Shown one piece after another: positions 7,765 to 41,032 of a stretch of 58,857 bases of DNA (position 1 is its first letter; every line of letters starts with the position of its first letter). Below the pieces are notes generated by a model, which saw nothing but the letters and a program-made list of their open reading frames with translations, searched no databases and was not told where the DNA came from. Origin of the DNA: Flavonifractor sp. An92. GTDB taxonomy: Bacteria; Bacillota; Clostridia; Oscillospirales; Oscillospiraceae. The stretch lies in assembly GCF_002159175.1 (NCBI RefSeq), contig NZ_NFGZ01000018.1:1-58857 (forward strand). The letters run 5' to 3'. Position numbers and translations under genes: made by a program.

Positions 7765-8114
7765 CTCGCCGCACGGGCCGCCTGCTCGGCGGGAGCACCG
7801 CTTTCTTTGCAAAGAAAGCGGTGAGAAAGAAAGCCCAGAGGGGGGATACCCCCCTCTGGACTCCCCCAAAGCGCATCCCGGCTTTCATTCCGCTGCGGCG
7901 GTGTTTCCAAGGCATGGCGTGGCCAATTCCGGGCTTTCCGCCTATCCGGAAAGCGTTGTACCCTGCCAATATGGGGCGGCCCCCGAAAAGGCCGCCCTTT
8001 TGGAGGGGAGTGGAGAGGGGAACGAGAAGTTCCCCTCTCCGCCTTTTCTTTCCCCGGTTTCTTTTCCGCGAAAAGAAATCGGGCCCCCGCTGGGTAAGCG
8101 GCCCGCCCGGCGAG
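7765..8114 (+). repeat. 350-bp dispersed hairpin-rich element, copy A
   Basis: First of four copies of a non-coding element. It runs from CTCGCC to GGCGAG, and the two ends are imperfect inverted repeats over about 45 bases. Inside are perfect hairpins at 7797-7822 (ACCGCTTTCTTTG stem), 7835-7859 (CCAGAGGGGGG stem), 7974-7997 (GGGCGGCC stem) and 8012-8040 (GGAGAGGGGAAC stem), plus an imperfect one near the right end (TTTCTTTTCC..AAAAGAAA). It fills the space between the convergent ends of ybaK and ileS, just after the ybaK terminator. Open frames cross it on both strands, but copies differ by 1-2 base indels, so it is not coding. It could be a MITE-like or REP-like mobile element or a structured RNA. 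Confidence 0.85.
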
Positions 8115-8148
8115 GGCGAATCCCCCGGGCTACCCAGGAAATACACGC

Positions 8149-8184
8149 AAAAAGAGAGGACGCCGTCTCCGGCATCCTCTCTTT
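8149..8184 (-). terminator. Terminator of ileS
   Basis: On the minus strand the stem AAAGAGAGGA..GCCG pairs with CGGC..TCCTCTCTTT, with a short GAGA loop, and runs into TTTTTG. It lies 13 bases beyond the ileS stop. Confidence 0.85.
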
Positions 8185-8196
8185 GGTGTTATAGGG

Positions 8197-10992
8197 TTAC
8201 TGCCCCACCACAGCGGCGCAGCGGTCGCACAGCTCGGCGTGGTGGCCCTCGGTACCAATGGAATCGCAGTGGTTCCAGCAGCGGGGGCACTTGGGCGCCT
8301 CGGACAGCTTCACGGCGATGGTGCAGGGGATGAGGGCATCCTCGTTCTTCTCCCCTTCCACCGCGTTGGTGGTGACGGTGACCTTGGACACGATGCACAG
8401 GCTGGCCAGGTCCACGCCCTCCAGGAAGGCGGCGTCCTCGGCGGACACAGACACGGTGACCTCGGTGTCCTGGGCCTTCTTGAACACGCCGGCGTTGCGG
8501 GCGTTCTCCAGAGCCTTGTTCACCGCGTCGCGCAGGGAGATAAGCTTCTCCCAGCGGGCCTTCGCGTCCTCGCCCAGGGCGTAGGCAGCGTTGTCGGAGG
8601 GCATGTCGTTCAGCAGGACGCTCTCGGCGTCCACGCCGGCGGCATGCTTCATGGCGTGCCAGATCTCGTCGGAGGTGAAGGCCAGGATGGGGGCGATGAG
8701 GCGGGTCATGCCATCCAGGATGTGGTACAGGGCGGTCTGGGCGGAGCGGCGCTCGGCCTCGGCGCCGCAGTACAGCCGGTCCTTGATGATGTCCAGATAG
8801 AAGTTGGACATGTCGATGACGCAGAAGTTGTACACGGCGCGGTACACCCCGTGGAACTCGTAGCGGTCATAGGCGGCGCGGACGTTCTTCACCAGCTCGT
8901 TGAGGGCGTGGAGGGCGTAGCGGTCCAGCTCCATCAGGTTCTCCAGGGCCACGGCGTCGGTGTCGGGGTTGAAGTCGCAGAGGTTGCCCAGCATGTAGCG
9001 GGCGGTGTTGCGGATCTTCAGGTAGGCCTGGGACAGCTGCTTCATGATGTCCTTGGAGATGCGCATGTCCTGGGTGTAGTCGGCGGAGGCCACCCACAGG
9101 CGCAGCATGTCGGCGCCGTAGTCCTTGATGACCTCATCGGGGGCCACAGCGTTGCCCAGGGACTTGTGCATGGCCTTGCCCTCGCCGTCCACGGTCCAGC
9201 CGTGGGTGGCGATCTGCTTGTAGGGTGCCACGCCGTTGACGGCGATGGAGGTCAGCATGGAGGACTGGAACCAGCCGCGGTACTGGTCGCCGCCCTCCAG
9301 ATAGAGGTCGGCGGGATACTTCAGGTAGGGACGCTCAGCGGCGACAGCGGCCCAGGTGGAGCCGGAGTCGAACCACACGTCCATGATGTCGGTCTCCTTG
9401 GTGAAGTGGGTCTTGCCGCACTTGGGGCACACGAAGCCCTGGGGCAGCAGGTCCTTGGCCTCACGGTCGAACCACACGTTGGAGCCGTGCTCCCGGAAGA
9501 GCTCAGCCACATGGGCGATGGTCTCGGGGGTCACGATATCGGCGCCGCAGTCCTCGCAGTAGAAGATGGGAATGGGCACGCCCCACACGCGCTGACGGGA
9601 GATGCACCAGTCGTTGCGCTCGGAGATCATGGAGATCATGCGCTCCTTGCCCCAGCCGGGATGCCACTGGATCTCGTCACAGGACTTGACGGCGGCGTCC
9701 TTGATGGCCTCCACGGAGCAGAACCACTGCTCGGTGGCGCGGTAGATGATGGGGTGCTTGCAGCGCCAGCAGTGGGGGTAGGAGTGGGTGATCTGCTCCT
9801 TTGCGACCAGGAAGCCCTCCTTCTCCAGGTCCTCCACCACCATGTCGTTGCCCTTGGCGTAGAACTGGCCGTTGTAGCGCTCGTCAGTCATGACGCCCTT
9901 GGCGTTGACGGGCACGGGCACGCCGATGTGGGTCAGGCCCGCCTTGTCGTACTGCTGGCAGATCTGGAAGTCCTCGGCGCCGAAGCCGGGGGCGGTGTGG
10001 ACGCAGCCGGAGCCGGCGTCCAGGGTAACGTGCTCGCCGTTGAGGATGACGCTCTCCCGGTCGAAGAGGGGGTGCTTGGCGGTCATCAGCTCGAACTCAG
10101 AACCCTTCAGCTCGGCCAGCACCTTGCAGGCCTCAAAGTCGATGTGGGCGGCCTTGCAGACGCTCTCGGCCAGGTCCTTGGCCAGGACGTACACGTCGCC
10201 GGAGGGCACCTGGAGGAGCACATAGTCGAAGTCGGCGTTCAGGCAGATGGCGAAGTTGCCGGGGATGGTCCAGGGGGTGGTGGTCCAGATCACGAAGTAG
10301 ACCTTGGAGAGGTCGGCGTACTGGCCCAGCTTGCCCTTGTCGTCCCGGACGGGGAATTTGACGAAGATGGTGGTACAGGGGTCGTCGGCGTACTCGATCT
10401 CGGCCTCGGCCAGAGCGGTCTGGTCGTGGGGGCACCAGTAGACCGGCTTCATGCCCTTGTAGATGAGGCCCTTCTCGGCCATCTTGCCAAAGACCTCGAT
10501 CTGCTTGGCCTCAAACTCGGGCAGCAGGGTGATATAGGGGTTGTCCCACTCGCCCAGGACGCCCAGGCGCTGGAACTGGCCGGTCATCTTGGCGATGTAG
10601 CTCTCGGCATACTCCCGGCACTTGGTGCGGAACTGAGCGGTGGTCATCTCCTCCCGCTTCACGTTCTTGTCCTTCAGGACGGCGGACTCGATGGGCAGGC
10701 CGTGGGTGTCCCAGCCGGGGACGTAGGGGGCGCAGAAGCCCGTCATGTTCTTCTCTTTGACGATGATGTCCTTGAGGATCTTATTGAGGGCGGTGCCGAT
10801 GTGGATGTTGCCGTTGGCGTAGGGAGGGCCGTCGTGCAGCACGAAGGTGGGCTTGCCCTCGTTGCGCTTGACCATCTTGTTGTACAGGTCGTGGTCGTAC
10901 ATCTCCTTGAGCATGTCCGGCTCACGCTTGGGCAGACCTGCCCGCATGGGGAAGTCGGTCTGGGGCAGGTGGACAGTCTGGTTGTAGTCCAT
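8197..10992 (-). CDS. ileS: Isoleucyl-tRNA synthetase
   Basis: This 931-residue class I aminoacyl-tRNA synthetase charges tRNA(Ile). It has the HIGH element in 'PPYANGNIHIGTALNK', a KMSKS-type loop 'GKAMHKSLGN', the large editing insertion between them ('LHDGP', 'WTTTPWTIPGN'), an anticodon-binding domain, and a C-terminal zinc knuckle with 'CPRCWNHC' and 'LCDRCAAV'. The start at 10992 is preferred over an in-frame TTG at 11005 because GGAGGAA overlaps that TTG and sits at proper distance from the ATG. It is the second gene of a T-box-controlled unit, 46 bases after the short SepF-like gene, so isoleucine shortage should raise its expression. Confidence 0.98.
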   Translation of the reverse strand: MDYNQTVHLPQTDFPMRAGLPKREPDMLKEMYDHDLYNKMVKRNEGKPTFVLHDGPPYANGNIHIGTALNKILKDIIVKEKNMTGFCAPYVPGWDTHGLPIESAVLKDKNVKREEMTTAQFRTKCREYAESYIAKMTGQFQRLGVLGEWDNPYITLLPEFEAKQIEVFGKMAEKGLIYKGMKPVYWCPHDQTALAEAEIEYADDPCTTIFVKFPVRDDKGKLGQYADLSKVYFVIWTTTPWTIPGNFAICLNADFDYVLLQVPSGDVYVLAKDLAESVCKAAHIDFEACKVLAELKGSEFELMTAKHPLFDRESVILNGEHVTLDAGSGCVHTAPGFGAEDFQICQQYDKAGLTHIGVPVPVNAKGVMTDERYNGQFYAKGNDMVVEDLEKEGFLVAKEQITHSYPHCWRCKHPIIYRATEQWFCSVEAIKDAAVKSCDEIQWHPGWGKERMISMISERNDWCISRQRVWGVPIPIFYCEDCGADIVTPETIAHVAELFREHGSNVWFDREAKDLLPQGFVCPKCGKTHFTKETDIMDVWFDSGSTWAAVAAERPYLKYPADLYLEGGDQYRGWFQSSMLTSIAVNGVAPYKQIATHGWTVDGEGKAMHKSLGNAVAPDEVIKDYGADMLRLWVASADYTQDMRISKDIMKQLSQAYLKIRNTARYMLGNLCDFNPDTDAVALENLMELDRYALHALNELVKNVRAAYDRYEFHGVYRAVYNFCVIDMSNFYLDIIKDRLYCGAEAERRSAQTALYHILDGMTRLIAPILAFTSDEIWHAMKHAAGVDAESVLLNDMPSDNAAYALGEDAKARWEKLISLRDAVNKALENARNAGVFKKAQDTEVTVSVSAEDAAFLEGVDLASLCIVSKVTVTTNAVEGEKNEDALIPCTIAVKLSEAPKCPRCWNHCDSIGTEGHHAELCDRCAAVVGQ

Positions 10993-11038
10993 GGGTTGTT
11001 CCTCCAAACATAAGAATTGATGAATCTCAGGGGCCGGA

Positions 11039-11305
11039 TCAATCCTCCGGCGGGGTGATCAGAAAGTGGTCCATGGTGAGTCTGCGGATCCTCCCCCCGG
11101 CCAGAAAGACTGCGCCGCACAGGAAATCCACGATACGCCGGGAGATCTCGCTGGGCATGTCCTCCACGCTCAGCACAAAGGGCTCCTCCTTCCGCACCCA
11201 CTGGATCAGCTCCGGGGCGTCGGAAAAGCTCTCCGCCTGATACCGGGGCAGATCGGCCACATCCTCCAGGGTAAGGGGCTCCTCCCAGTCCAGATTCTCT
11301 TCCAT
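11039..11305 (-). CDS. Short SepF-like protein (second SepF domain protein)
   Basis: An 88-residue protein whose C-terminal half matches the SepF core: 'ISRRIVDFLCGAVFLAGG' followed by 'RIRR' and 'HFLITP' align with 'IARRLLDFLSGVAYANEG' and 'YIITP' of the full SepF encoded at 12472-12954. It lacks the N-terminal amphipathic membrane helix and the acidic linker. Full SepF bundles FtsZ and ties it to the membrane; a version without the anchor could modulate that ring, which is inference. The start at 11305 is set by AAAGGAG. It is the first gene after the isoleucine T-box leader and precedes ileS, an unexpected partner for a division-type protein. Confidence 0.8.
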   Translation of the reverse strand: MEENLDWEEPLTLEDVADLPRYQAESFSDAPELIQWVRKEEPFVLSVEDMPSEISRRIVDFLCGAVFLAGGRIRRLTMDHFLITPPED

Positions 11306-11324
11306 CGCGTCTCCTTTCGATACG

Positions 11325-11600
11325 AAAAAACGCCTTTGTCTCCTGTCAAACAAGAGACAAAGGCGCTTCTAGTCCTCTGCGGTACCACTCTTTTTGCCGC
11401 CGGGGGCGGCCACTCAGCCCGTGCAGACGCACGGAGGCGGGATAACGGCCGCTGCCCGTCCCCGCTTACTGTTTGGTTCAGCGGGCCGCTCCAAGGCGAT
11501 CTTCCCGCCGCGCTGCTCTCCGCCTTACACCAAACGGCGGCTCTCTGGGCAGCAAACGCGGCGCTACTGGTCCTCTTCTGCGCGTTTGGATATTGAAAAC
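11325..11600 (-). promoter_or_regulatory. T-box leader, isoleucine type
   Basis: Read on the minus strand this is a complete T-box. Stem I has an AGTA element, 'AGAGAGC' and 'GGTGTAAGG' motifs, and a specifier region 'GAAGATCGCC' then 'TTGGAGC' that presents ATC (Ile codon, + strand 11498-11500). Near the 3' end is the T-box bulge 'GAGTGGTACCGC' (11377-11391), then a terminator stem with GCGCCTTTGTCTC and GAGACAAAGGCG arms and TTTTTT (11325-11367). Uncharged tRNA(Ile) would stabilise the antiterminator and allow transcription of the SepF-like gene and ileS. The specifier assignment is by alignment to the usual T-box pattern. Confidence 0.93.
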
Positions 11601-11606
11601 GCTACT

Positions 11607-11635
11607 ATCTTATCCGTTTTCCCCGCTCCTGTCAA
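11607..11635 (-). promoter_or_regulatory. Promoter of the T-box / ileS unit
   Basis: Near-consensus sigma-A promoter on the minus strand: TTGACA, 17-base spacer, TAAGAT. It lies immediately after the divIVA stop codon and places the transcript start at about 11600, the 5' end of the T-box. Confidence 0.85.
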
Positions 11636-11641
11636 GGGGGC

Positions 11642-12409
11642 TCACTTGATTTCGTAGTCCCGGCCGAACTGGAGGTTGGAAAAGTCGATGCGCTTGGTGG
11701 GGGCGGTGTCGTCCTCCTCCTCCGCAGGCTCCTCGGCCTCCGGGCGCTCGATGGGCTGGCGGGAGGGGCGCTTGTGGCGCTCGCCCTCAGCGGGGTTCAT
11801 GTTCAGCTCCATGAGCTCGGCATAGAGCCCGCCGTCCGACTTGTCCTCCACCGGCACCTCGATGGTGATGGTGTCGGCGGTGAGATCGGGCTCCTCCGCC
11901 TTGGGGGCGGGCTGCTCCGGCTGGGCGGTCTGGACCGGCTCCTCCGCCGCCACGGGGGCGGTGAACTGGTCCAGGCTGCGGAGATAGTCCATCTCGTGCT
12001 GGTAGAGCTCCTTGAGCTTGGCCACATAGGCGGCCGTGGCCTTGCGGGCGGCCTCCAGCCGGCCCTCCTCGTTGGCCACCTCCTGGACGAGCTGGTTGCG
12101 GCGGGTGCGGACCTCGGCGTCCACCGTCTGGAGCATGGTGTTGCGCTTCTGCTCGGCCTCAGCCACCATCTCGTCGGCCATCCGCTGGGCGGTGAGCAGG
12201 GCCTTGCGCATGGCGTCCTCAGTGGAGCGGTACTCCTCCACCTTGTCCACCAGCACCTTCATCTTGCTCTTCAGGACAGCGTTTTCCTTATAGAGCGCGG
12301 TATAATCCTCGGTGAGCAAATCCAGGAATTCGTCCACCATGGCCATATTGTAGCCGCCGAAGGACGCCTTGGCAAAGGCGTGCTCGGAGACTTCCTGAGG
12401 AGTCATCAT
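11642..12409 (-). CDS. divIVA: DivIVA-family cell division protein
   Basis: This 255-residue coiled-coil protein senses membrane curvature at poles and division sites. The N-terminal lipid-binding domain shows the family pattern 'FAKASFGGYNMAMVDEFLDLL' in shortened form at residues 12-32 (F..GY..VD.FL). A long coiled coil spans about residues 35-165, and an acidic Pro/Glu-rich tail follows. Two adjacent ATGs (12409 and 12406) are possible starts; the RBS is weak. It follows sepF in the order yggS-sepF-divIVA-ileS, a conserved Gram-positive division neighbourhood, but the ylmG and ylmH genes often found between are absent. No terminator separates it from the T-box promoter. Confidence 0.93.
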   Translation of the reverse strand: MMTPQEVSEHAFAKASFGGYNMAMVDEFLDLLTEDYTALYKENAVLKSKMKVLVDKVEEYRSTEDAMRKALLTAQRMADEMVAEAEQKRNTMLQTVDAEVRTRRNQLVQEVANEEGRLEAARKATAAYVAKLKELYQHEMDYLRSLDQFTAPVAAEEPVQTAQPEQPAPKAEEPDLTADTITIEVPVEDKSDGGLYAELMELNMNPAEGERHKRPSRQPIERPEAEEPAEEEDDTAPTKRIDFSNLQFGRDYEIK

Positions 12410-12471
12410 AAGTCAAAACCCCGTTTCTCTCCCGTGCGTTCCGCCCGGTCTTTTGTTTCAAACTGGAGCGC

Positions 12472-12954
12472 TTAGAAGTAGAGCCCGTTGTTCTCCAGTT
12501 CGTCGATGAGATCCCCCAAGATATCCACGTTGTAGGGGGTGATGATGTAGGTGGAGATGGCCACCTTCTTGATCTTGCCCTCGTTGGCGTAGGCCACGCC
12601 GGAGAGGAAGTCCAGCAGGCGCCGGGCAATGTCCTTGTTGGTCTGCTCCAGGTTGAGCACCACGGTGCGCTTCTCCCGCAGGTGGTCGGCGATCTCGGCG
12701 GCGTTCTCGAAGCGGTCGGGCTTCACCAGCACCACCTGCAGCTGAGTGGTGGTGTGGATGTTGACCACCTTGTTGCTGCGGCGCTCCGGCTCCATGTTGA
12801 AGGAGGCGGGCTCCTTCTTGGCCGGGCTCTTGCGGTCGTTGTAGTCGTCGCGGCGGCTGCTGCGGCTGTCTTCGAAGTCGTCTTCGTAATCGTCCATATC
12901 CTCTTCGTCCTCATAAGGACGGGCCAGGCGCTTGAGTTCATCCATAAGTCCCAT
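12472..12954 (-). CDS. sepF: Cell division protein SepF
   Basis: A 160-residue FtsZ-binding membrane anchor. It has the N-terminal amphipathic helix 'MGLMDELKRL', an acidic, Arg/Asp-rich linker (about residues 15-65), and the SepF core (about 72-155) with 'RFENAAEIADHLREKRTVVL' and 'ARRLLDFLSGVAYA'. A good RBS (AGGAGG) precedes the ATG. It lies between yggS and divIVA, the expected context. A shorter homologue is encoded nearby at 11039-11305. Confidence 0.96.
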   Translation of the reverse strand: MGLMDELKRLARPYEDEEDMDDYEDDFEDSRSSRRDDYNDRKSPAKKEPASFNMEPERRSNKVVNIHTTTQLQVVLVKPDRFENAAEIADHLREKRTVVLNLEQTNKDIARRLLDFLSGVAYANEGKIKKVAISTYIITPYNVDILGDLIDELENNGLYF

Positions 12955-13009
12955 AAAAAACCGTTCCTCCTGATTTATTTCCGACGGGCCGCCGGCCCAG
13001 GGATACCGC

Positions 13010-13720
13010 TTAGTGAGGCGCTCCCATGGGCGGCCGGGGGCCGAAGAGCGCTGTACCCACCCGGACCAGCGTGGCGCCTTCCCGGACGGCGTCCATATAA
13101 TCGCCGCTCATACCCATGGAGAGAGAATCCATAGCAGAACTATTATCGTCCATTTTCCCCTTTATGTCAACAAAAAGCTGTTTCATCTCGGCAAAAAAGG
13201 GGCGATTCTCCCCCGGCGCATGGGCAGCGGGCGGGATGGCCATGAGCCCCCGCAGGCGCACATGCGGAAGCACAGCGGCCTTCTGGGCCAGGGCAAACAG
13301 GTCCTCGGGGGCCACGCCGCTCTTGCTTTCCTCGCCGCCCACGTTGACCTCCAGCAGGATATCCTGCACCACGCCGATCTTTTCCGCCTGGCGCTCAATG
13401 GCCTCCAGCAGGTGCTCCGACCCCACCGACTCGATGAGGTCCACCTTGCCCACCACGAACTTCACCTTGTTGGTCTGCAAATGGCCGATGAAGTGGAGGG
13501 CGGCGCCGGCATAGGCGTCGTCGCCCAGGTGGGCGGTCATCTCCTGCACCCGGTTCTCACCGCACACCGTGATGCCGGCGGCGATGGCTTCCCGGATGGT
13601 GTCCGAGGTCTGGACCTTCGTGGCCGCCACCAGGGTGATTTCTCCGGGGTCCCGGCCCACCTCACGGGCGGCCTGGGCGATGTTCTCCCGCACCTTCTGG
13701 ATGTTCTCTGCCAAAGACAT
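13010..13720 (-). CDS. yggS: YggS-family PLP homeostasis protein
   Basis: A 236-residue protein of the PLP-binding barrel family (YggS/YlmE/PROSC), which buffers pyridoxal phosphate and affects amino-acid balance. The PLP lysine is in 'LVAATKVQ', followed by 'ENRVQEM', 'HFIGHLQTNK', 'EVNVGGEESKSG' and the C-terminal 'LSMGMSGDY' phosphate-binding motif. The start at 13720 has GAGAGAGGTG upstream, better than the in-frame start 3 codons earlier. It is placed just before sepF, as ylmE is in Gram-positive division clusters. Confidence 0.95.
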   Translation of the reverse strand: MSLAENIQKVRENIAQAAREVGRDPGEITLVAATKVQTSDTIREAIAAGITVCGENRVQEMTAHLGDDAYAGAALHFIGHLQTNKVKFVVGKVDLIESVGSEHLLEAIERQAEKIGVVQDILLEVNVGGEESKSGVAPEDLFALAQKAAVLPHVRLRGLMAIPPAAHAPGENRPFFAEMKQLFVDIKGKMDDNSSAMDSLSMGMSGDYMDAVREGATLVRVGTALFGPRPPMGAPH

Positions 13721-13745
13721 GATACGCACCTCTCTCTGTCTGCTT

Positions 13746-15017
13746 CTAGTCTACGACCATACCGTCGAAGATCTCGTCGCCGGCGATGACCACCTGGTCC
13801 CCGGCGCGGAGGATGGTCTTGGCCGAGGAGGAATCCTCCACCGGCGCGACCACACAGTAGTCGTCCCGGCGGGCCAGGATCTCCACGGGCTTGAACTCAT
13901 ACTGCATGCCCACCACAGCGTAGACGCCCACGGTCTGCACGGTACTCTCGTTTCCGTCCTCATCGGTGACGGTCTGCTCCAGGGTGCGGATGGCGCCGCT
14001 GGGGACCCGCAGGCCCTCCTGGGAACTAAAGACCAGCTCCACCGTCTGGCGGCGCAGCAGGGTGGTCTCCGACAGGAAGCGGTCGGTGGAGAAGATCACC
14101 ACGCATTCGCCGTCCACCGGCGCGCCCACGCGCTCCACCTTCATGTCCACCTCGCCGGACCAGTCCCGGGAGAAGCGCACTTCCACACTCTTGCCCTCGG
14201 TGAGGCGGTTGGCCTCCTCCTCGGTGAGGACGCAGGCAAAGCGCCAGGTGGCGTCGGTGATGAGCTTGCCCACTGCGCCGCTCTGGGCGGTGACGGTCTG
14301 GGTGCCCACGGCCTTGAGCTGGGCGGGGGTCATGGCCTCCACCGCCTCCGGGGTGAGGATGGACTCATAGCCGTCCACCAGGCCAGAGAAGGTGCCCGGC
14401 TGGCTCACCGTCACCCGGGTGGTGTCCGCCCCCGCCTGGGTGGTGAGGGCGGAGATCTGGGCGTTGACGCTGTCCAGCTGGCTCTGCAGCGCGGCGGTGT
14501 CGCCGCCCTCATAGGCGCTGGAGCGCTGGTAGATGAGGCTGCGCAGCTCCAGGGTCTGGTCCTCCAGCCGGGTCAGGTCGCCGTTGGCGGCGGAGGAGCG
14601 CAGGTCCACGATGGCGTCGATGATGTCCTCGTTGAGCCGCGCGTTGTCGCTGACGGTATTGGTGGCGGTGAGGGCGTACTGAAGCTGTGTCCGCTCCTCC
14701 TCCAGGGTCTGGAGCTGGGCCTGACGCTGGGCGGCGTCGGCGCTGGAGTACAGCAGGGCCACGGTGGCGCCGCTGGCCACCTTCTCCCCCTCGTTGTAGA
14801 GCTGCTCCACCACGGCGGCGCCGCCGCCCTGGATGACCTGCTCCTCCCGCACCAGAAAGCCGGTGACCTCCATGGTCTCCTCCACCGTAGTGGCGTAACA
14901 GGTGGCCAGCGTGTAGGGATCGGTGAGCCCCTTCCAGACCGTGACTCCCAGATAGAGGAGCACCGCCCCGAAGAGCACCAGCATCATCACCCGGTTGAGA
15001 ACCTCGCCTTGCTTCAT
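13746..15017 (-). CDS. HlyD-like membrane-fusion / adaptor protein
   Basis: A 423-residue protein with one N-terminal membrane helix (about residues 8-26), a biotinyl-lipoyl-like half ('VTGFLVREEQVIQG', 'VASGATVALLYSS'), a long coiled-coil hairpin (about 80-200) and beta-rich C-terminal domains. This is the layout of HlyD/RND-type periplasmic adaptors, here in a Gram-positive context. The second ATG (15017) is used because GGAGG lies 7 bases upstream. No ABC or MFS transporter is adjacent; it sits between hfq and yggS in the division-gene run, 25 bases before yggS. Its partner is unknown; a role at the division site or in envelope assembly is only suggested by location. Confidence 0.75.
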   Translation of the reverse strand: MKQGEVLNRVMMLVLFGAVLLYLGVTVWKGLTDPYTLATCYATTVEETMEVTGFLVREEQVIQGGGAAVVEQLYNEGEKVASGATVALLYSSADAAQRQAQLQTLEEERTQLQYALTATNTVSDNARLNEDIIDAIVDLRSSAANGDLTRLEDQTLELRSLIYQRSSAYEGGDTAALQSQLDSVNAQISALTTQAGADTTRVTVSQPGTFSGLVDGYESILTPEAVEAMTPAQLKAVGTQTVTAQSGAVGKLITDATWRFACVLTEEEANRLTEGKSVEVRFSRDWSGEVDMKVERVGAPVDGECVVIFSTDRFLSETTLLRRQTVELVFSSQEGLRVPSGAIRTLEQTVTDEDGNESTVQTVGVYAVVGMQYEFKPVEILARRDDYCVVAPVEDSSSAKTILRAGDQVVIAGDEIFDGMVVD

Positions 15018-15062
15018 TCGCATTCCTCCGCCCGCCTGGGGCCTCCGCCGCCCCTCCACCGG

Positions 15063-15314
15063 CTAGCGCCCGGCGTCCTCCCCGGCGGAACGTCCGCTGT
15101 CCAGGGAGATGGCCCGCTCGGGCACGATGGTGGAGATGGCGTGCTTGTATATGACCTGCTGCTTGCTCTCGCTGTGTACCACCACCACGAAGGCGTCAAA
15201 GCCGGTGATCTGGCCCCGGATCTGGTATCCGTTCACCAGAAATACCGTCACATTGGCGCGGGTGCTCCGGGCGCGGAGCAGGAAGAGGTCCTGAAGGTTG
15301 TTGATCTTTTGCAT
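15063..15314 (-). CDS. hfq: RNA chaperone Hfq
   Basis: An 83-residue Sm-like RNA chaperone. The Sm1 motif is seen in 'NLQDLFLLRARSTRANVTVF' and the Sm2 motif in 'QQVIYKHAISTIVP', which matches the usual 'YKHAIST' of Hfq. A short charged tail follows. RBS AAAGGAG is upstream. It follows mutL by about 120 bases, which hold a small GC hairpin (15341-15360) without a T-run. In many bacteria hfq sits beside miaA; here miaA is about 40 kb away. Confidence 0.97.
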   Translation of the reverse strand: MQKINNLQDLFLLRARSTRANVTVFLVNGYQIRGQITGFDAFVVVVHSESKQQVIYKHAISTIVPERAISLDSGRSAGEDAGR

Positions 15315-15435
15315 AGAGCTGCACTCCTTTTCTTTCTAAGGCCGGCACGTGTCCGGCCCAGGGATGGCTCTATGCTAACCAATAATTTCCATTTATGCCC
15401 GTGAAATCGGTCGAGCCGGGGAAATTTTTTGCCCC

Positions 15436-17445: not shown

Positions 17446-17470
17446 AGGGTCACCGTCTTTCTAACGTCCG

Positions 17471-20809: not shown

Positions 20810-20867
20810 GGTGTCTGACTCCTTTTCTCTCATTCTTTGTCCTGACCGGAAGCCCGGTGGGGTTGCC

Positions 20868-21217
20868 CTCGCCGGGCGGGCGTCCTGCCCGGACAGGGCA
20901 CCGCTTTCTTTGCAAAGAAAGCGGTGGGAAAGAAAGCCCAGAGGGGGGATACCCCCCTCTGGACTCCCCCAAAACGCTCCCCGGCCTCCATCCGGCTGCG
21001 GAGGGATTTCATTACCCTGGCGTGGCCAATTCCAGGCTTTCCGCCTATCCGGAAAGCGTTGTACCCTGCCAATATGGGGCGGCCCCCCAAAAGGCCGCCC
21101 TTTTGGAGGGGAGTGGAGAGGGGAACGAGAAGTTCCCCTCTCCGCCTTTTCTTTCCCCGGTTTCTTTTCCGCGAAAAGAAATCGGGCGCTGTCCGCGCAG
21201 GACGCCCGTGCGGCGAG
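20868..21217 (+). repeat. 350-bp dispersed hairpin-rich element, copy B
   Basis: Second copy, same orientation as copy A and the same length. The ends use a different stem sequence (GTCC..GGAC in place of CCGCC..GGCGG) but still match each other as inverted repeats. All internal hairpins are kept. It separates the Xre gene (ending at 21241) from the mutS start (20809), both on the minus strand, so any transcript from the regulator into mutS would cross it. Confidence 0.85.
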
Positions 21218-21240
21218 CACACCCCCGGCGGGGCCGGGTC

Positions 21241-21450
21241 TTACGGCTCGTCCCGGAGGCCCAGCAGGTAGTCGCTGCTGACGTTAAAGTAGCGGGCCAT
21301 GCGCACGATGGTGGAGGCGGTGGGCTCCCGCTCGCCATATTCATACCGTTTATAGGCGCTGTACGACAGGTCCAGAAGTTCGGCAAGTTCGTCCTGCTTC
21401 TTCTGATTGGCCAGCCGCAATTCTTTCAAGCGCTCTGATAAAACACTCAT
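21241..21450 (-). CDS. Small Xre-family (HTH) regulator
   Basis: A 69-residue protein that is almost only a Cro/CI-type helix-turn-helix: 'RLKELRLANQKKQDELAELL' is followed by 'YSAYKRYEYGEREPTAS' and a C-terminal 'YFNVSSDYLLGL', as in small phage-type repressors. It is divergent from the small gene at 21535, and the shared space holds two near-palindromes that look like its operators, one inside the promoter of that gene. It is likely a repressor of that gene and perhaps of itself. Confidence 0.92.
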   Translation of the reverse strand: MSVLSERLKELRLANQKKQDELAELLDLSYSAYKRYEYGEREPTASTIVRMARYFNVSSDYLLGLRDEP

Positions 21451-32162: not shown

Positions 32163-32191
32163 TCTCCGCACAACGAAAAGGAGTGAATGGA

Positions 32192-34351: not shown

Positions 34352-34377
34352 ATTTGGTTTCCTCCTTCTTGCAGCAT

Positions 34378-34419
34378 GAGGAGCGCCCCCCAAATCCGGG
34401 GGGCGCTCCTCGTTTCTTT
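34378..34419 (+). terminator. Terminator of the 5'-nucleotidase gene
   Basis: Perfect 14-bp stem GAGGAGCGCCCCCC with GGGGGGCGCTCCTC, 6-base loop, followed by GTTTCTTT. It also lies at the end of the convergent anti-sigma gene. Confidence 0.9.
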
Positions 34420-34436
34420 GAAAAGGATTCCAATGG

Positions 34437-35819
34437 TTACGGCAGGTCGAAGGTCACGTCCCCAATGGTCACCGAGGCCACCTGGCTGGTGTCCAGGAGA
34501 CAGGGCGCGCCGTCCTCGGTGAGAAGGGTGTATTCCAGTGTACAGGCGTCCTCGCTCTGGTGGCCGCCATAGTTCCAGGGCTCCAGCACGGTGCCGTCAG
34601 TCAGGGTGATGGTGAGGGGCACCCTCAGCGAGGCGTCGTAGGCCTCATCCAACTCCAGCTCCAGGGCGATCTCCCGGGCCGAGAGGCGCAGCTCCCGCAG
34701 CAGGAGGGTCTTGCCCTCCGCCTGGATGGGCTCCAGGGGAAGGGTAACTGCGGCGCTGGTGTCCACCTGGAAGGACAGCTCAAAGGGCTCCGTGGTGACC
34801 AGCTGGGCGATCTGATACTCCGCCTCCAGCTCCAGCCAGGGCAGGTCCTCCGCCGTCAGGGGGCAATCCCGGAACGACGTGACCCAGACCTCGGTCCCGT
34901 CGGGGAGATAGGCCGTGGTGCTGCTGACCGCCTCATAGCGCGCCCCCGTTCGGGTGTCGATGAGCGCGCCGGCTTCCACGCCGATGCAGTCGGTCAGGTC
35001 CCGCACCCCATGGATGCTCTCCACCGCGATGGACAGGCCGTCTTCGGTCATCAGGGCGCCCCGCACCGCTGCGCCGGAAAAGCCCTCCACGGCGGGGATG
35101 GGCAGGTCACAGTCCTGTTCCGCCAGGAGGCGGCCCATCCGGGTGGGAGGATCGGCCTCTGGATCACGGGCATAGGTGGGGATCTCCCGCTCCGCCAGCG
35201 TCTCCAGAGACAGGGTGGCCGTCTCTACCTCATACCACTTGCCCAGCGCGGGCACTTCATAGGTGAGGGTTCGGCCAGCCAGGGAATCCACATCGTGAAT
35301 CGACTGATCCTCCACAAAATATAGGGTCTTGCCGTCGCCGGACAGCCTCCTGCCGCCCATGCCGTAGCCGCCGCTGGTGGTGAGGACCTGTTTCCCGTCC
35401 AGGCTCAGGGTGCTCTCCAGCCTCATGTCGCCGAAATACATGCGCAGGTCCGGGTCGATCTCCGCCCCGTCGGTCCGGGTGAGGGACAGGAGGAGCATCA
35501 GGCCGGCGTCATCGGCCACCGCGTCCTCCACGGTGAGGGTGTAGTCCCCATGGGTCTGGGAGACATTCAGCTCGGTGACGGCGTTTTCCGGCACGCCGGG
35601 GAAGAAGTACCGCCAGGCGTCGCTGAGCCCGGCAGCCCCCACCACCGCGCCCAGCATGACCACCAGGCAGGCCGCCGCCACGGCCATGCGGAAATAGGGC
35701 CGGTTGTGCCGCTCCCGGCGCTCCAGCCGGGCGCGGACCCCCTCCTCCAGAGGGGCTTCGGGTGTTTCTACGGCGGAGAGCGCCTGATAAATGCGCTCCT
35801 CCTCGGGGGTTCGTTTCAT
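34437..35819 (-). CDS. DUF4179-type anti-sigma factor
   Basis: A 460-residue single-pass membrane protein coupled to a sigma factor. The N-terminal cytoplasmic part (about residues 1-42, 'MKRTPEEERIYQALSAVE') would bind sigma; one membrane helix spans about 44-65; a large beta-rich extracellular part follows, beginning with 'WRYFFPGVPENAV' as in DUF4179 proteins. The start overlaps the sigma stop (ATGA), typical of sigma/anti-sigma pairs. The signal it senses is unknown. It ends facing the 5'-nucleotidase gene. Confidence 0.87.
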   Translation of the reverse strand: MKRTPEEERIYQALSAVETPEAPLEEGVRARLERRERHNRPYFRMAVAAACLVVMLGAVVGAAGLSDAWRYFFPGVPENAVTELNVSQTHGDYTLTVEDAVADDAGLMLLLSLTRTDGAEIDPDLRMYFGDMRLESTLSLDGKQVLTTSGGYGMGGRRLSGDGKTLYFVEDQSIHDVDSLAGRTLTYEVPALGKWYEVETATLSLETLAEREIPTYARDPEADPPTRMGRLLAEQDCDLPIPAVEGFSGAAVRGALMTEDGLSIAVESIHGVRDLTDCIGVEAGALIDTRTGARYEAVSSTTAYLPDGTEVWVTSFRDCPLTAEDLPWLELEAEYQIAQLVTTEPFELSFQVDTSAAVTLPLEPIQAEGKTLLLRELRLSAREIALELELDEAYDASLRVPLTITLTDGTVLEPWNYGGHQSEDACTLEYTLLTEDGAPCLLDTSQVASVTIGDVTFDLP

Positions 35820-36325
35820 AAAGATCCCTCCTGTTCGGTGAGCAGGCGGGCCAGCTTGCCCCGGGCCCGCTCATAACGTTTGCGTAAGGTAGCCTCGCTC
35901 TTGCCCAGCATCTGGGAGAGCTCCTCGTAGCTGCGCTCCTCCATCACCCGGCCAAAAATCAGGGCCCGCTCCTCCGCCGTCAGGGCGAGAAGGGCTTTCC
36001 GCAGCTCCGGGCCGATGTAATCCGGGTCCTCCGCCGGGGCGGCGGGTGGGACAAAGAGCTGTTTTTTGCGCCGCCGCAGCAGGTCCACGCAGGTGGTGTA
36101 GGCCAGGCGGTAGAGCCAGGCGGACAGGTTGGTGCCCGACTGGAAGCGGCGGCGGTGGGTGTAGGCCTTGCAGAAGGTGATCTGCACCGCGTCCTGGGCC
36201 TCGTGGTAGTCGCACAGGATGTGGTGGCAGTAGCGCAGCAGCGGCTGGCCGTAGCGGTCGATGACCTGGGCGAGGGCGTCCTCCTCCCCCGCCGTGAAGG
36301 CGGCGTCCAGCGCTTGGGCATCCAT
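35816..36325 (-). CDS. ECF (sigma-70 family) RNA polymerase sigma factor
   Basis: A 169-residue extracytoplasmic-function sigma factor. Region 2 (about residues 8-75) has 'VIDRYGQPLLRYCHHILCDY' and the DNA-melting 'AWLYRLAYTTCVDLLRRRKK'; region 4 (about 105-160) has 'LTAEERALIFGRVMEERSYE' and 'SEATLRKRYERARGKL'. It is translationally coupled to the downstream anti-sigma gene. A 13-base palindrome 26 bases upstream contains a GAAACC element like ECF -35 boxes, so self-activation is possible. The terminator for lepA lies about 75 bases upstream. Confidence 0.94.
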   Translation of the reverse strand: MDAQALDAAFTAGEEDALAQVIDRYGQPLLRYCHHILCDYHEAQDAVQITFCKAYTHRRRFQSGTNLSAWLYRLAYTTCVDLLRRRKKQLFVPPAAPAEDPDYIGPELRKALLALTAEERALIFGRVMEERSYEELSQMLGKSEATLRKRYERARGKLARLLTEQEGSL

Positions 36326-36350
36326 AAGACCACTTCCTTTCCTCTCGTTT

Positions 36351-36363
36351 GAAACCTGGTTTC
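36351..36363. promoter_or_regulatory. Palindrome with ECF -35-like element before the sigma gene
   Basis: Perfect palindrome GAAACCTGGTTTC. Both strands read GAAACC, the usual core of an ECF -35 box. It is close to the sigma start (26 bases), so it may be an operator rather than a -35. Confidence 0.4.
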
Positions 36364-36401
36364 ACCTTTTATAACGCAGACCGGACTTGGTTTGTGACAG
36401 C

Positions 36402-36434
36402 AAAAAGCCCCCGGCAGGAATTTCCTGTCGGGGG
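36402..36434 (-). terminator. Terminator between repeat copy C and the sigma gene
   Basis: Minus strand 13-bp stem (CCCCCGACAGGAA with TTCCTGCCGGGGG, one A-C mismatch, 1-base loop) followed by CTTTTT. It would stop transcripts from lepA after they cross the repeat. Confidence 0.8.
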
Positions 36435-36468
36435 TCGATCTGTTTTTTGGGAACCTCCCGGGGGTGCG

Positions 36469-36816
36469 CTCGCCGCGCGGGCCGCCTGCTCGGCGGGAGC
36501 ACCGCTTTCTTTGCAAAGAAAGCGGTGGGAAAGAAAGCCCAGAGGGGGGATACCCCCCTCTGGACTCCCCCAAAGCGCATCCCGGCTTTCATTCTTCTGC
36601 GGCTGTATTTCCTCAGCCTGGCGTGGCCAATTCCGGGCTTTCCGCCTATCCGGATAGCGTTGTACCCCGCTGCTCGGGGCGGCCCCATAAAAGGCCGCCC
36701 TTTTGGAGGGGAGTGGAGAGGGGAACGAGAAGTTCCCCTCTCCGCCTTTTCTTTCCCCGGTTTCTTTTCGCGAAAAGAAATCGGGCCCTGTCCGGGCAGG
36801 ACGCCCGCCCGGCGAG
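36469..36816 (+). repeat. 348-bp dispersed hairpin-rich element, copy C
   Basis: Third copy, same orientation as A and B. Its left end has the GCCGCC..GGCGG stem type of copy A, and its right end has the GTCC..GGAC type of copy B, so it combines both end types. Internal hairpins are kept; the loop of the GGGCGGCC hairpin reads CCATAAAA. It lies between the lepA stop (36853) and the sigma gene. About 20 bases of similarity to copy D continue outside the left end (GAACCTCCCGGGGGTGCG), so the true element may be nearer 390 bp. Confidence 0.85.
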
Positions 36817-36852
36817 GGCAACAGTTCCGGGCTGCCCGGAACAAAACACTTG

Positions 36853-38661
36853 TTACTCTTCGTCCAGCTTGAGGACAGCCATAAACGCCTCGGTGGGCAG
36901 CTGCACGGAACCCAGGGAGCGCATCTTCTTCTTGCCCTCCTTCTGCTTCTCCAGCAGCTTCTTCTTTCGGGTGATGTCACCGCCGTAACACTTAGCCAGC
37001 ACGTCCTTGCGCACCGCCTTGACGGTCTCGCGGGCGATGACCTTGCCGCCGATGGCGGCCTGCACCGGCACCTCGAAGAGCTGGCGGGGGATGTTCTCCT
37101 TCAGCTTCTCGCAGATGCGGCGGGCCCGCTTGTAGGCCTTCTCCTTGTGGGCGATGAAGGACAGAGCATCCACCTGCTCGCCGTTGAGGAGCATGTCCAC
37201 CTTCACCAGTTCGCTGGGCCGGTAGCCCTCCACCTCGTAGTCCAGGGAGGCGTAGCCCTTGGTGTTGGCCTTCAGGGCGTCAAAGAAGTCGTAGATGATC
37301 TCGTTGAGAGGCATGGAGTAGTGGATCTCCACCAGATTGGTGTCCAGATACTGCATGTCCTTGAACTCGCCCCGGCGGTCCTGGCACATGGGCATGATAT
37401 TGCCCACATAGTCGGGGGGCGCGATGATGGAGACCTTCGCAAAGGGCTCCCGGGCCTCCTCGATGACGGCGGGGTCGGGGTAGTTGTGGGGGTTGTCCAC
37501 GTGGACCACAGTGCCGTCGGTCTTGGTGATCTCATAGATGACCGACGGGAGGGTGGTCACCAGGTCCAGGTCGAACTCCCGCTCCAGCCGCTCCTGGATG
37601 ATCTCCATGTGGAGCATGCCCAGAAAGCCGCAGCGGAAGCCAAAGCCCAGGGCTGCAGAGGACTCGGGCTCAAAGGACAGAGACGCGTCGTTGAGCTGGA
37701 GCTTCTCCAGCGCGTCCCGCAGGTCGGGGTATTTGCTGCCGTCCTCGGTGTACACGCCGCAGTAGACCATGGCCTGGGCGGGGCGGTAGCCGGGCAGGGG
37801 CTCGGCGGCGGGCGCCTCCACGCCGGTGATGGTATCGCCCACCCGGGTGTCCTTCACATTCTTGATGGAGGCGGTGAAGTAGCCGACCTCACCGGCGGAG
37901 AGGGACTGGGTGGGCTCCAGGCCCAGGGGGCGCAGGTAGCCGCACTCAATGACCTCGTACTCGGCGCCGGAGGCCATCATGCGCACCTTCATGCCGGTGC
38001 GGATGGTGCCCTCCATCACGCGGAAGTAGACGATGACGCCCCGGTAGGCGTCGTACTGGCTGTCGAAGATGAGGGCCTTCAGGGGGGCCTTGGGGTCGCC
38101 GGTGGGGGCGGGGATGTTCTGGACGATATCCTCCAGCACCGCGTCGATGTTCAGGCCCACCTTGGCGGAGATCTCGGGGGCGTCCATGGCGGGCAGGCCG
38201 ATGACGTCCTCGATCTCGTGCTTGACCTTCTGGGGGTCGGCGGCGGGCAGGTCGATCTTGTTCACCACCGGGCGGATCTCCAGGTCGTGCTCCAGGGCCA
38301 GATAGGTGTTGGCCAGCGTCTGGGCCTCGATGCCCTGGGCGGCGTCCACCACCAGCACCGCGCCCTCACAGGCGGCCAGAGAGCGGGAGACCTCGTAGTT
38401 GAAGTCCACGTGGCCCGGGGTGTCGATGAGGTTGAGCTCGTACTCCTCCCCATCCTGGGCCTTGTAATTGAGCTTTACCGCCCGGGCCTTGATGGTGATG
38501 CCGCGCTCCCGCTCCAGGTCCATGTTGTCCAGAAGCTGGGACTCCATCTCCCGCTGGGAGACGGCGTTGCACTTCTCGATGAGCCGGTCGGACAGGGTGG
38601 ATTTGCCGTGGTCAATGTGGGCGATGATACTGAAATTCCGAATCTTGGACTGGTCAGACAA
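36853..38661 (-). CDS. lepA: Elongation factor 4
   Basis: A 602-residue translational GTPase that acts on stalled or back-translocated ribosomes. The G domain shows '[20 protein letters not shown]', 'DTPGHVDF' and 'NKIDLPAA'; domain II and the EF-G-like domains follow; the LepA-specific C-terminus includes '[20 protein letters not shown]'. The start is TTG at 38661 with GGAGGTG upstream. The Xre-type regulator ends 37 bases upstream on the same strand, so they may be cotranscribed. Confidence 0.98.
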
Positions 38662-38698
38662 TCAAAACACCTCCGTCAGGGTTGGATGGGGGCAGGGC

Positions 38699-39400
38699 TT
38701 ACTTGTTGCCCTTGTGGAACTCGATGCAGTTGGACACACGCACGCCGGTGTTGTGGACAATCTGCAGGAGGGACTGGTACGCGCCGGGGTAGTTCTCCAT
38801 CAGCGCGTCGTGGTTCATGGCGGGGAAGGAGCCCTTCTCCCGGCGGTGGTCCTCCAGGGCCTCCACATAGGAGCAGCGGGAGCAGACCATGTCCGCCTGA
38901 GCCACGCCGGTGGCGAAGGCCGTGGGGGGCACGTCGAAGAAGTCCTCGTTCTGGGTGCCGTCGGCCCGGTAGAGGTGTCGGAAGAGGGTGTAGATGGCGG
39001 TGCTCAGGTAATCCGCCGCCCCCTTGATGGCCCCCTTGCACTCGGTCTTGCCCAGAAGGTCAAAGAGGACGCTGATGGAGTTGACCAGCAGCTTCTTGTT
39101 CAGCGTGGCCACGATGCTGCCGTGGAGAACGTTGTCCTTCTCGGTGGAGTAGTCGTACAGCTCCTCCGGCGAGACGATGGTGGAGCCGTCCTTGGTCAGC
39201 GTCCGGCCCAGCAGGAAATCGGCGGAGACGTTGTAGTAGTCGCAGGCACGGGTGACGAACGCCAGACCCGGTTCCCGAACGCCGTTTTCATAGTGCGAGA
39301 GGAGCGCCTGGCTGATGCCCAGATCCTTGGCCGCGGCGCGCTGGGAGATCCCCTTTTCCTGCCGGAGCAGGGAGAGGCAGCGGGAGAAATCGGAATGCAT
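38699..39400 (-). CDS. Xre-family regulator with a larger C-terminal domain
   Basis: A 233-residue regulator. The N-terminal helix-turn-helix (about residues 6-66) has 'QRAAAKDLGISQALLSHYEN' and 'YYNVSADFLLGR'. The remaining ~165 residues form a mostly helical domain with a Cys pair ('VCSRCSY') that I do not recognise as a named ligand-binding domain. Similar proteins stand near lepA in related Clostridia, as far as I recall. It has its own promoter, divergent from pta, with a GAGGTG RBS. It may regulate itself or the adjacent pta; no clear operator was found. Confidence 0.87.
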   Translation of the reverse strand: MHSDFSRCLSLLRQEKGISQRAAAKDLGISQALLSHYENGVREPGLAFVTRACDYYNVSADFLLGRTLTKDGSTIVSPEELYDYSTEKDNVLHGSIVATLNKKLLVNSISVLFDLLGKTECKGAIKGAADYLSTAIYTLFRHLYRADGTQNEDFFDVPPTAFATGVAQADMVCSRCSYVEALEDHRREKGSFPAMNHDALMENYPGAYQSLLQIVHNTGVRVSNCIEFHKGNK

Positions 39401-39480
39401 ATCGACAACACCTCATGACGAAATGTAGATAAAAGGACGGCCCACTCCCGGGCGGAGGGGTCGCGAAAAACAGCGTGTAT

Positions 39481-39509
39481 AGTATAGCTTGATGAATACA
39501 AAAAGTAAA
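39481..39509 (-). promoter_or_regulatory. Promoter of the Xre-lepA unit
   Basis: Minus strand TTTACT, 17-base spacer, TATACT, about 80 bases upstream of the regulator start in an AT-rich divergent space. Confidence 0.6.
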
Positions 39510-39542
39510 TCAATAAATTGACCGAATTTTTTGAATTAAGGA

Positions 39543-39572
39543 TTGTAGTTATTCTATGAACTGGTGTATAAT
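39543..39572 (+). promoter_or_regulatory. Promoter of pta
   Basis: TTGTAG, 18-base spacer, TATAAT, about 45 bases upstream of the pta start. Confidence 0.6.
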
Positions 39573-39617
39573 GAGCATACCAATAACCATACCGCGATTA
39601 GAAAAGGGGTTTTTCCT

Positions 39618-40595
39618 ATGTTCGGTAAATTGATTGCAAAGCTGAAGCAGTCTCCCAAGAAGATCGTCTTTACTGAGGGTACCGACCCCCGCATCCTGGA
39701 GGCCAGCGCCCGCCTGCTGGCCGGAACCTGGCTGACTCCCATTCTGGTGGGCAACGTGGATGAGGTGAAGGCCGCCGCCGAAGAGGCCGGCTTCAACATC
39801 CGCGGCGCCGAGATCATCGATCCCGCCACCTATCCCCGCATGGAGGAGATGGTGCAGAAGATGGTGGAGCTGCGCAAGGGCAAGATGACCGAGGAGCAGG
39901 TCCGCGACTACCTGAAGCGCGGCAACTACTTCGGCACCATGCTGGTGAAGATGGGCGAGGCCGACGCTCTGCTGGGCGGCGCCACCTACTCCACCGCCGA
40001 CACCGTCCGTCCTGCCCTGCAGCTCATCAAGACCAAGCCGGGCAACAAGATCGTGTCCTCCTGCTTCATCATGGTCCGTCCTTCCGCCACCGGCGGCAAC
40101 GAGGTGCTGGTCATGGGCGACTGCGCCATCAACATCAAGCCCACCGAGGACGAGCTGGTGGAGATCGCCATCGAGTCCGCCCGCTGCGGCAAGATCTTCG
40201 GCGTGGATCCCCAGGTCGCCATGCTGTCCTACTCCACCCTGGGCTCCGGCGCCGGTGAGGACGTGGACAAGATGCGCAACGCCACCGCCAAGATCCGGGC
40301 CGCCATGCCCGAGCTCCCCGTGGAAGGCGAGATCCAGTTTGACGCCGCCGTGTCCCCCAACGTGGCCCGCACCAAGTGCCCCAACTCTCCCGTGGCCGGC
40401 CACGCCAACACCTTTATCTTCCCCGACATCAACGCGGGCAACATCGGCTACAAGATTGCCCAGCGTCTGGGTAACTTCGACGCCTACGGCCCCATCCTGC
40501 TGGGCCTGAACGCCCCTATCAACGACCTCTCCCGCGGCTGCAACGCCCAGGAGGTCTACTCCATGGCCATCATCACCGCCGCTCTGGCCGACTGA
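39618..40595 (+). CDS. pta: Phosphate acetyltransferase
   Basis: A 325-residue phosphotransacetylase that interconverts acetyl-CoA and acetyl phosphate, the ATP-yielding step toward acetate in fermentation. The length and motifs are those of the short class: 'KKIVFTEGTDPRILEAS', 'LLGGATYSTADTVRPALQ', 'SYSTLGSGAGEDVDKM', 'VEGEIQFDAAV', 'NTFIFPDINAGNIGYKIAQR' and the closing 'GPILLGLNAPINDLSRG'. The codons favour highly expressed choices. The partner ackA is not adjacent. The ATG at 39618 follows AAAAGGGG. Confidence 0.97.
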   Translation: MFGKLIAKLKQSPKKIVFTEGTDPRILEASARLLAGTWLTPILVGNVDEVKAAAEEAGFNIRGAEIIDPATYPRMEEMVQKMVELRKGKMTEEQVRDYLKRGNYFGTMLVKMGEADALLGGATYSTADTVRPALQLIKTKPGNKIVSSCFIMVRPSATGGNEVLVMGDCAINIKPTEDELVEIAIESARCGKIFGVDPQVAMLSYSTLGSGAGEDVDKMRNATAKIRAAMPELPVEGEIQFDAAVSPNVARTKCPNSPVAGHANTFIFPDINAGNIGYKIAQRLGNFDAYGPILLGLNAPINDLSRGCNAQEVYSMAIITAALAD

Positions 40596-40608
40596 TCCAG
40601 AATGTGAG

Positions 40609-40645
40609 ACAGGAGCATCCCAAATCGGGGTGCTCCTGTTTTTTT
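40609..40645 (+). terminator. Terminator of pta
   Basis: 13-bp stem ACAGGAGCATCCC with GGGGTGCTCCTGT (one C-G shift, 5-base loop) and then TTTTTTT. Confidence 0.92.
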
Positions 40646-40683
40646 GTGGGACAGTCTTTCCCTGGGAACCTCCCGGGGGTGCG

Positions 40684-41032
40684 CTCGCCGCGCGGGCCGC
40701 CTGCTCGGCGGGAGCCCCATTTCTTTTCTCGAAAAGAAATGGGGGAAAGAAAAGAAGGAGAGGGGAACTTCTCGTTCCCCTCTCCACTCCCCTCCAAAAG
40801 GGCGGCCTTTTAAGGGGGCCGCCCATATTGCCGGGGTACAACGCTTTCCGGATAGGCGGAAAGCCTGGAATTGGCCACGCCAGGCTAAGGAAATACCGCC
40901 GCAGAAGAATGAAGACCGGGATGCGCTTTGGGGGAGTCCAGAGGGGGGTATCCCCCCTCTGGGCTTTCTTTCCCACCGCTTTCTTTGCAAAGAAAGCGGT
41001 GCTCCCGCTGAGCAAGCGGCCCGCCCGGCGAG
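40684..41032 (-). repeat. 349-bp dispersed hairpin-rich element, copy D (inverted)
   Basis: Fourth copy, on the opposite strand from the others. Both ends are of the GCCGCC..GGCGG type. The hairpin near its + strand left end reads CCCATTTCTTTTC with GAAAAGAAATGGG, a compensated change from the other copies. It fills the convergent space between the ends of pta and prfC, starting 39 bases after the pta terminator. The flanking bases outside both ends match those of copy C for about 20 bases. Confidence 0.85.

Follow-up and report, generated by a model that had tools for sequence, protein, structure and literature searches.

Mobile insertion cassettes (MICs) and TIMEs consist of passenger genes, with no transposase among them, between transposon-like ends that derive from known insertion sequence (IS) or Tn3 ends. 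Here we analyze a repeat of about 350 bp present in four copies (copies 1–4) in a 58,857-bp stretch of the gut bacterium Flavonifractor sp. An92 (contig NZ_NFGZ01000018.1, positions 1 to 58,857), hereafter the window. Its closest described counterparts include bacterial miniature inverted-repeat transposable elements (MITEs) such as RUP, Correia/NEMIS, ERIC and bcr1, described as dispersed, non-coding sequences of 70–300 bp with inverted ends and without a transposase gene (PMC2229807, PMC10969869, PMC3733652). Among these counterparts, YPAL/RU-2 of Yersinia is described as an intergenic, non-coding palindromic element of about 168 bp that is not A+T-rich and whose targets span or adjoin dyad symmetry (PMC2229807). 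Repetitive extragenic palindromes (REPs) are described as 20–40 bp sequences with a GTAG or CGTC tag, and recombinant E. coli RAYT recognizes single-stranded REP DNA (PMC3733652). Additionally, SPRITE of Streptococcus pneumoniae is described as a dispersed, terminator-like element (PMC10969869).

The element studied here shares with bacterial MITEs its dispersal, inverted ends and non-coding character, and the lack of a transposase gene. It differs in being longer and G+C-rich, in having covarying hairpin chains as ends, and in that neither a target site duplication nor, among the fetched loci, a parent transposon was found. Like YPAL, it is an intergenic, non-coding repeat that is not A+T-rich; however, YPAL is half the size, is flanked by target duplications of 3–26 bp and has internal inverted repeats, whereas the element here ends in hairpin chains of about 110 bp and showed no duplication. 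With REPs and their paired form, REPINs, it has in common self-complementary ends, inverted pairs, a tendency to unlike partners and an extragenic position (PMC3733652), but it measures 350 bp, lacks a GTAG/CGTC tag at the foot of its outermost hairpin (H1), and no Y1 transposase gene was found in its genome. The likeness to SPRITE, both being dispersed and terminator-like, is one of description. The MIC trait of ends around passenger genes is seen only at three loci of other genera (L273, L269 and L270) and not in the window copies, and the ends of the element, in contrast to those of MICs and TIMEs, are assigned to no family. The original prediction had named no family with such a layout, and this held: the element had no Rfam match at gathering score, and literature searches returned no description of it.

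We favor, with moderate confidence, the interpretation that the family is non-autonomous, MITE-like DNA with folded ends that is tolerated or kept at gene 3′ ends; a non-autonomous mobile element fits the pattern better than a host RNA. The element is dispersed, has covarying hairpins and conserved ends around species-specific cores, and lies at gene 3′ ends. Between species it differs in presence and in the orientation of its core, and at three places outside the genus its ends enclose small genes. Dispersal, the lack of coding, inverted ends, and cores and sites that differ between species are best fitted by the MITE-like option among those offered in the original prediction. In the proposed mechanism, two mirrored ends, each a four-hairpin chain, would enclose a dispensable core, and copies would spread in trans through a recombinase or transposase. 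Judging from the folded ends and their stem pairing, this enzyme would most likely read a folded single-stranded form of the ends. Copies would insert, or persist, almost solely right after stop codons, and the hairpins, several of which are followed by T-rich stretches, are predicted from sequence to be able to stop transcription from either side; since they may end transcription, insertions would be harmless or useful. A repeat family that is common in part of a major gut-bacterial group bears on the spread of MITE-like elements for which no transposase is known, on the reason why hairpin stems in bacterial repeats change in sequence yet continue to pair, and on whether mobile elements supply transcription ends.

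A search of the window's genome (G000, 3.49 Mb, Flavonifractor/Pseudoflavonifractor group) with a window copy as query gave at least 40 matches of 260 bp or longer, with 40 of 64 first-look candidates scored. A profile run over fetched stretches of this genome identified 43 places, incomplete ones included, out of 84 matches, the others being reverse-strand echoes or pieces of the same places, and additional searches contributed ten further places, giving 53 in total. The whole-genome search proposed in the original prediction thus yielded further copies, but the many hundreds per genome projected from the density in the window came down to about 50, as seven of the 53 places touch contig ends. 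The fetched stretches contain 35 distinct copies with a terminal hairpin at each end; 33 of these are 345–352 bp long and the other two 262 and 285 bp. Genes were called with a simple codon-usage caller, with a Pfam check on nine proteins, and no called gene overlapped the element in any of the 43 copies examined, consistent with a dispersed element without coding capacity. The element also covers the ends of contigs C9, C18 (both ends), C19, C29, C42 and C59; with these seven contig ends inside it, short-read assemblies are probably broken by the repeat.

Each end of the element spans about 110 bp and consists of four small hairpins in a chain, repeated as a mirror image at the opposite end. 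The inverted terminal repeats of the original prediction are therefore present at both ends, with a length of about 110 bp instead of about 45 bp. Reading inward, the order is H0, H1, H2, H3, the linker GGGAAAGAAAG, H4 and then the core. H1, the outermost stem (TGYSC-TCGCC-GSRCR), occurs in four alleles, H3 has the arms TTTCTTT/AAAGAAA, and H4 is a G-rich palindrome. H0, a variable hairpin, lies beyond the repeat itself: a fold better than that of shuffled sequence by 3 kcal/mol or more was obtained for 36 of 64 outer zones, compared with 9 of 64 zones further out. In copy 3, read on the plus strand, the left end comprises H1 (36465..36479, TGCGC-TCGCC-GCGCG), H2 (36482..36496), H3 (36501..36526, the 26-bp palindrome ACCGCTTTCTTTGCAAAGAAAGCGGT), the linker (36527..36537), which is a copy of the H3 3′ arm, and H4 (36539..36563), which is terminator-like when read leftward, on the minus strand. 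These are followed by the core hairpins H5 and H6 (36638..36700), with TTTT after H6, and by H7 (36715..36743), which precedes a T-rich tract and is terminator-like on the plus strand. H8 (36758..36784) mirrors H3, and the right terminal hairpin (36806..36820) mirrors H1 with the allele GCCC. Two variants read by eye, L263 and L265, have a different H7 within an otherwise similar frame, from which it appears that single hairpins can be exchanged whole.

Covariation of the stems was assessed in an alignment of 50 hand-picked ends, 30 of them from G000, with each copy contributing one end, and 20 from relatives. Across H1 and H2, 99.6% of the cells were standard pairs, against 80.8 ± 1.2% in shuffled alignments and at most 53.3% in slid controls. 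At the H1 column pair 40/48, G-C occurred 26 times and C-G 24 times, with no broken pair, and at 39/49 we counted 28 C-G, 21 U-A and a single U-G. The outermost H1 pair showed no covariation and was T-G in 45 ends. Genome-wide, H1 was fully paired in 79 of 83 matches (shuffled mean 22.5, maximum 37). The same H1 allele stood at both ends in 5 of 32 copies, where 9.1 were expected (P 0.06); because the ends of one copy mostly differ in allele, the kept feature is the local hairpins and not end-to-end pairing. Few wobble intermediates were seen within the covarying stem pairs of H1 and H2, which points to DNA rather than RNA as the paired form. Arms and linker also co-varied (mean 5.94 against 5.23 permuted, above all 5000 permutations, maximum 5.88), only a hint given that related rows are not independent. 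The stem pairing may alternatively be of purely mutational origin, through template switching in palindromes.

The element lies almost exclusively behind genes. Among the 41 of 43 copies with a called gene on both sides (two lacked a gene on one side), 21 had convergent, 19 tandem and 1 divergent neighbors, whereas random intergenic placement in simulation predicted 6.6 convergent and 10.8 divergent cases. Of these copies, 31 had a stop codon no more than 40 bp away, against 10.6 expected and at most 21 in any of 5000 runs, and 38 had one within 100 bp. In the tandem copies the orientation of the core was mixed, 8 running along transcription and 11 opposite to it. Terminator-like hairpins pointing outward were predicted at both ends of copies 3 and 4, in a 4.9-kb region that contained 16 terminator-like sites (some of them outside the elements), against 4.0 ± 2.0 in shuffled sequence. 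The element hairpins may accordingly stop transcription in both directions, and the placement behind genes may result from targeting or from selection.

Within the genus, the exact end pattern matched contigs of Candidatus Flavonifractor merdigallinarum, Pseudoflavonifractor sp. 524-17 (G004) and Candidatus F. intestinipullorum (G009). Matches at E ≤ 0.001 were obtained in all nine other genus genomes (G001–G009), and among the matches listed, those of G001–G006 are ends. The same exact pattern was also observed in one contig of a Hyphomicrobiales metagenome bin (L094 near 7505), perhaps by chance or through a misbinned contig. Core and spacing vary by species. Between G000 and G007, core identity is 0.64, compared with 0.82 within either species, and end identity is 0.87–0.89 between and 0.89–0.93 within them, with identical copies counted once and one of 22 G007 elements, of undecided orientation, excluded.

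Seven sites were read as common to G000 and G007. The core is inverted at three of them, behind ileS (copy 1; one flank), behind lepA (copy 3; one flank) and between the release factor 3 gene and pta (copy 4; both flanks), and keeps its orientation at the other four, L041, L036 (one flank), L144 and L051, the last being a site where both G007 contigs end within the element. Furthermore, G009 carries the element on the mutS side of the copy 2 site, in unchanged orientation, and a partly deleted copy at another L041 site. One further L041 element was dropped as a shared site with G007, about 490 bp lying between the element and the shared flank. As to differences in presence, the flanks of 21 out of 26 G007 loci, some of which overlap, matched none of the 43 G000 element loci compared; L084, among the 21, later proved shared. 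In one collinear stretch, G007 lacks an element of G000, and the aligned blocks are 72 bp apart there instead of 428. The G000 element at L051 occupies a gene-order junction that was seen in none of the genomes G006, G007, G008 and G009, and in the stretches of these four inspected for it the model found no end. At L085, two G000 elements flank a segment that runs in the opposite direction in G007. Some copies thus mark gene-order breaks between species.

Beyond the genus, a covariance model of the end found matches at E ≤ 0.001 in 43 of the 150 family genomes, with ten or more matches in 16; at E ≤ 1e-5, it matched 21 of the 295 order genomes, of which 10 belong to the same family. The scans scored at most 22 (family) or 11 (order) candidates per genome, so that copy numbers are lower bounds and a match-free genome may still hold some. 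In 25 matches from 22 loci, 23 of them from outside the genus and two (L160 and L030) from G001, 95.9% of pairs were kept, against 70.6 ± 1.3% in shuffled and 68.4% in the best slid controls, in an alignment that was fitted to the model and leans toward it. Three inward-facing pairs of ends outside the genus enclose genes. The L273 pair spans 1075 bp, lies behind a gene that by eye resembles gyrB, and surrounds the gene of a 189-aa membrane-like protein with 30% G+C, against 58–60% in its neighbors. Pfam matches of this protein were weak and under the cut-offs, and searches of defense models and plasmids gave no match. The same genome holds two sister copies of 637 and 506 bp whose cores, 382 and 265 bp, are too short for the cargo gene. 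The L269 pair (1496 bp) surrounds genes of a ribbon-helix-helix (RHH) protein and a DUF6809-like protein, the latter under the curated cut-off, and the L270 pair (848 bp) surrounds genes of an HTH_26 protein and a 52-aa open reading frame (ORF). A further nine inward pairs, including two from the genus, measure 380–748 bp. Some relatives of the element therefore hold small, foreign-looking genes. Within end pairs of other genera, small helix-turn-helix (HTH) or RHH genes are repeatedly found next to genes of DUF6809-like or other small proteins, the small-gene regions lying at 3912-4487 in L273, 1530-2394 in L269 and 1025-1476 in L270, and at L282 similar small genes, read by eye, adjoin a single end.

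Several results weigh against a mobile element. Target duplications, a check named in the original prediction, did not appear at any offset up to 70 bp in the 32 of 43 copies that were usable (11 incomplete or irregular ones were left out); the longest shared direct repeat averaged 6.25, compared with 6.15 in crossed controls. The transposase gene with matching ends that was likewise proposed did not turn up either, since no transposase-bearing element with these ends was found among the fetched loci, and the phage and plasmid collections searched gave no match to the element. Candidate empty sites in relatives were observed: the element is absent from the collinear G007 stretch and at the L051 site, but the former, the single collinear case, is too diverged for its junction to be read, and the L051 neighborhood is rearranged in all four relatives. 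Shared-site copies are no closer to each other than random inter-species pairs, ranking 20, 15, 26 and 19 of 35 in G007 (the last at a rearranged site) and 16 of 35 in G009, and gene conversion or repeated insertion must be invoked to explain this. Additionally, weaker terminator-like sites in copies 3 and 4 also face inward.

These points have to be set against what other explanations can account for. A host 3′-end module, that is, a bidirectional terminator and mRNA stabilizer under selection, copied by gene conversion rather than transposition, would agree with the position behind stop codons, the terminator-like hairpins, the sites common to G000 and G007 and the homogenization of copies within species. 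We nevertheless consider it unlikely, as presence differs between species, core orientation along transcription is mixed, the ileS and release factor 3 genes each retain, ahead of the element, their own terminator-like hairpin, and foreign-looking genes are enclosed in relatives. REP/BIME-like palindromes spread by a Y1 (RAYT or TIRYT) transposase would show the same hairpin ends, inverted pairs, extragenic position and tendency to unlike partners. This option, which the original prediction had raised as a large REP-type element, is disfavored and appears improbable: the Y1 domain PF01797 had matches in 5 of 10 genus genomes and none in G000, G005, G007, G008 and G009 (G007 and G009 being about 81% complete), the Y1 genes of the other species are not bounded by element ends, and the GTAG tag is missing from the foot of H1.

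A structured non-coding or cis-regulatory RNA, also raised in the original prediction, finds arguments in the very stable fold of the 350 nt (about -210 kcal/mol), in the covariation and in the outermost T-G of H1, which forms a wobble pair on the inward strand only. Nevertheless, Rfam gave the element no match at gathering score over the whole window, the best sub-threshold match of copy 1 being psaA with 29.7 bits against 50; G-U intermediates are few in the covarying pairs, the core is poorly conserved between species, and its orientation relative to transcription is mixed. The ends fold better outward, the inward strand being the better one in only 2 of the 64 ends from G000 and in 5 of the 20 from relatives, and over the whole element the strands are equal (plus strand better in 16 of 32). 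The fold thus has no consistent strand advantage and lends no support to an RNA, which we regard as very improbable. Least probable of all is an invertible switch in which a site-specific invertase flips the core between the inverted ends and so controls the neighbors. It could account for the inverted cores at three of the seven shared sites, but the element is dispersed in about 50 copies, and random orientation would equally be expected if copies inserted independently or recombined in the ordinary way across their 110-bp inverted repeats.

Building on the MITE-like interpretation, we tentatively suggest, as a possibility that is rather doubtful, that the hairpin chains could be the recognition ends of an undescribed Oscillospiraceae mobilization system acting on folded single-stranded DNA. 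The 350-bp elements would then be empty cassettes, related cassettes would carry HTH/RHH, DUF6809-like and membrane-protein genes, and both would be placed behind genes with their ends doubling as terminators. Viral contigs were rejected as carriers, the 54 loose H1 matches in 53 contigs including 16 paired ones, near the chance quarter. An H1-like hairpin was observed in two viral contigs, L221 (3313-3346) and L260 (2460-2493 and 6762-6795); its stem alleles covary there while the sequence context stays the same, and this may be coincidence or a common single-stranded-DNA signal; in L221, which has gokushovirus-like ORFs by eye, it lies behind a gene. In the viral contigs L258 (near 5829) and L212 (near 14606), an H1-like hairpin is followed by an H2-like one, and no inverted partner was found in L258 or in the searched stretch of L212.

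In the window, all four copies lie exactly where the original prediction had placed them, with lengths of 350, 350, 348 and 349 bp by its limits; the terminal hairpins extend 4 bp beyond these limits. Mean column identity across the four copies is 88% in an alignment that includes 40-bp flanks. Copy 1 (7761..8118, plus strand) has convergent genes on both sides, one for an aminoacyl-tRNA editing domain protein (plus strand, ending at 7696) and one for a class I (isoleucyl-type) tRNA synthetase (8197-11007, minus strand). Copy 2 (20864..21221, plus strand) stands in a tandem arrangement behind the gene of a 59-aa HTH_3 protein (21241-21420, minus strand) and in front of mutS (minus strand). This HTH_3 gene stops 24 bp from the copy and resembles in kind the small regulators near end modules elsewhere. 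Copy 3 (36465..36820, plus strand), likewise tandem, lies behind lepA (36853-38661, minus strand) and in front of a sigma factor gene (minus strand). Copy 4 (40680..41036, minus strand) is located between the convergent pta (39618-40595, plus strand) and release factor 3 (41124-42731, minus strand) genes. Upstream of the tRNA synthetase gene adjoining copy 1, a T-box leader (RF00230) was identified at 11350-11589 on the minus strand, and an ssnA RNA motif (RF03031) scored over the gathering threshold at 44432-44480 on the plus strand.

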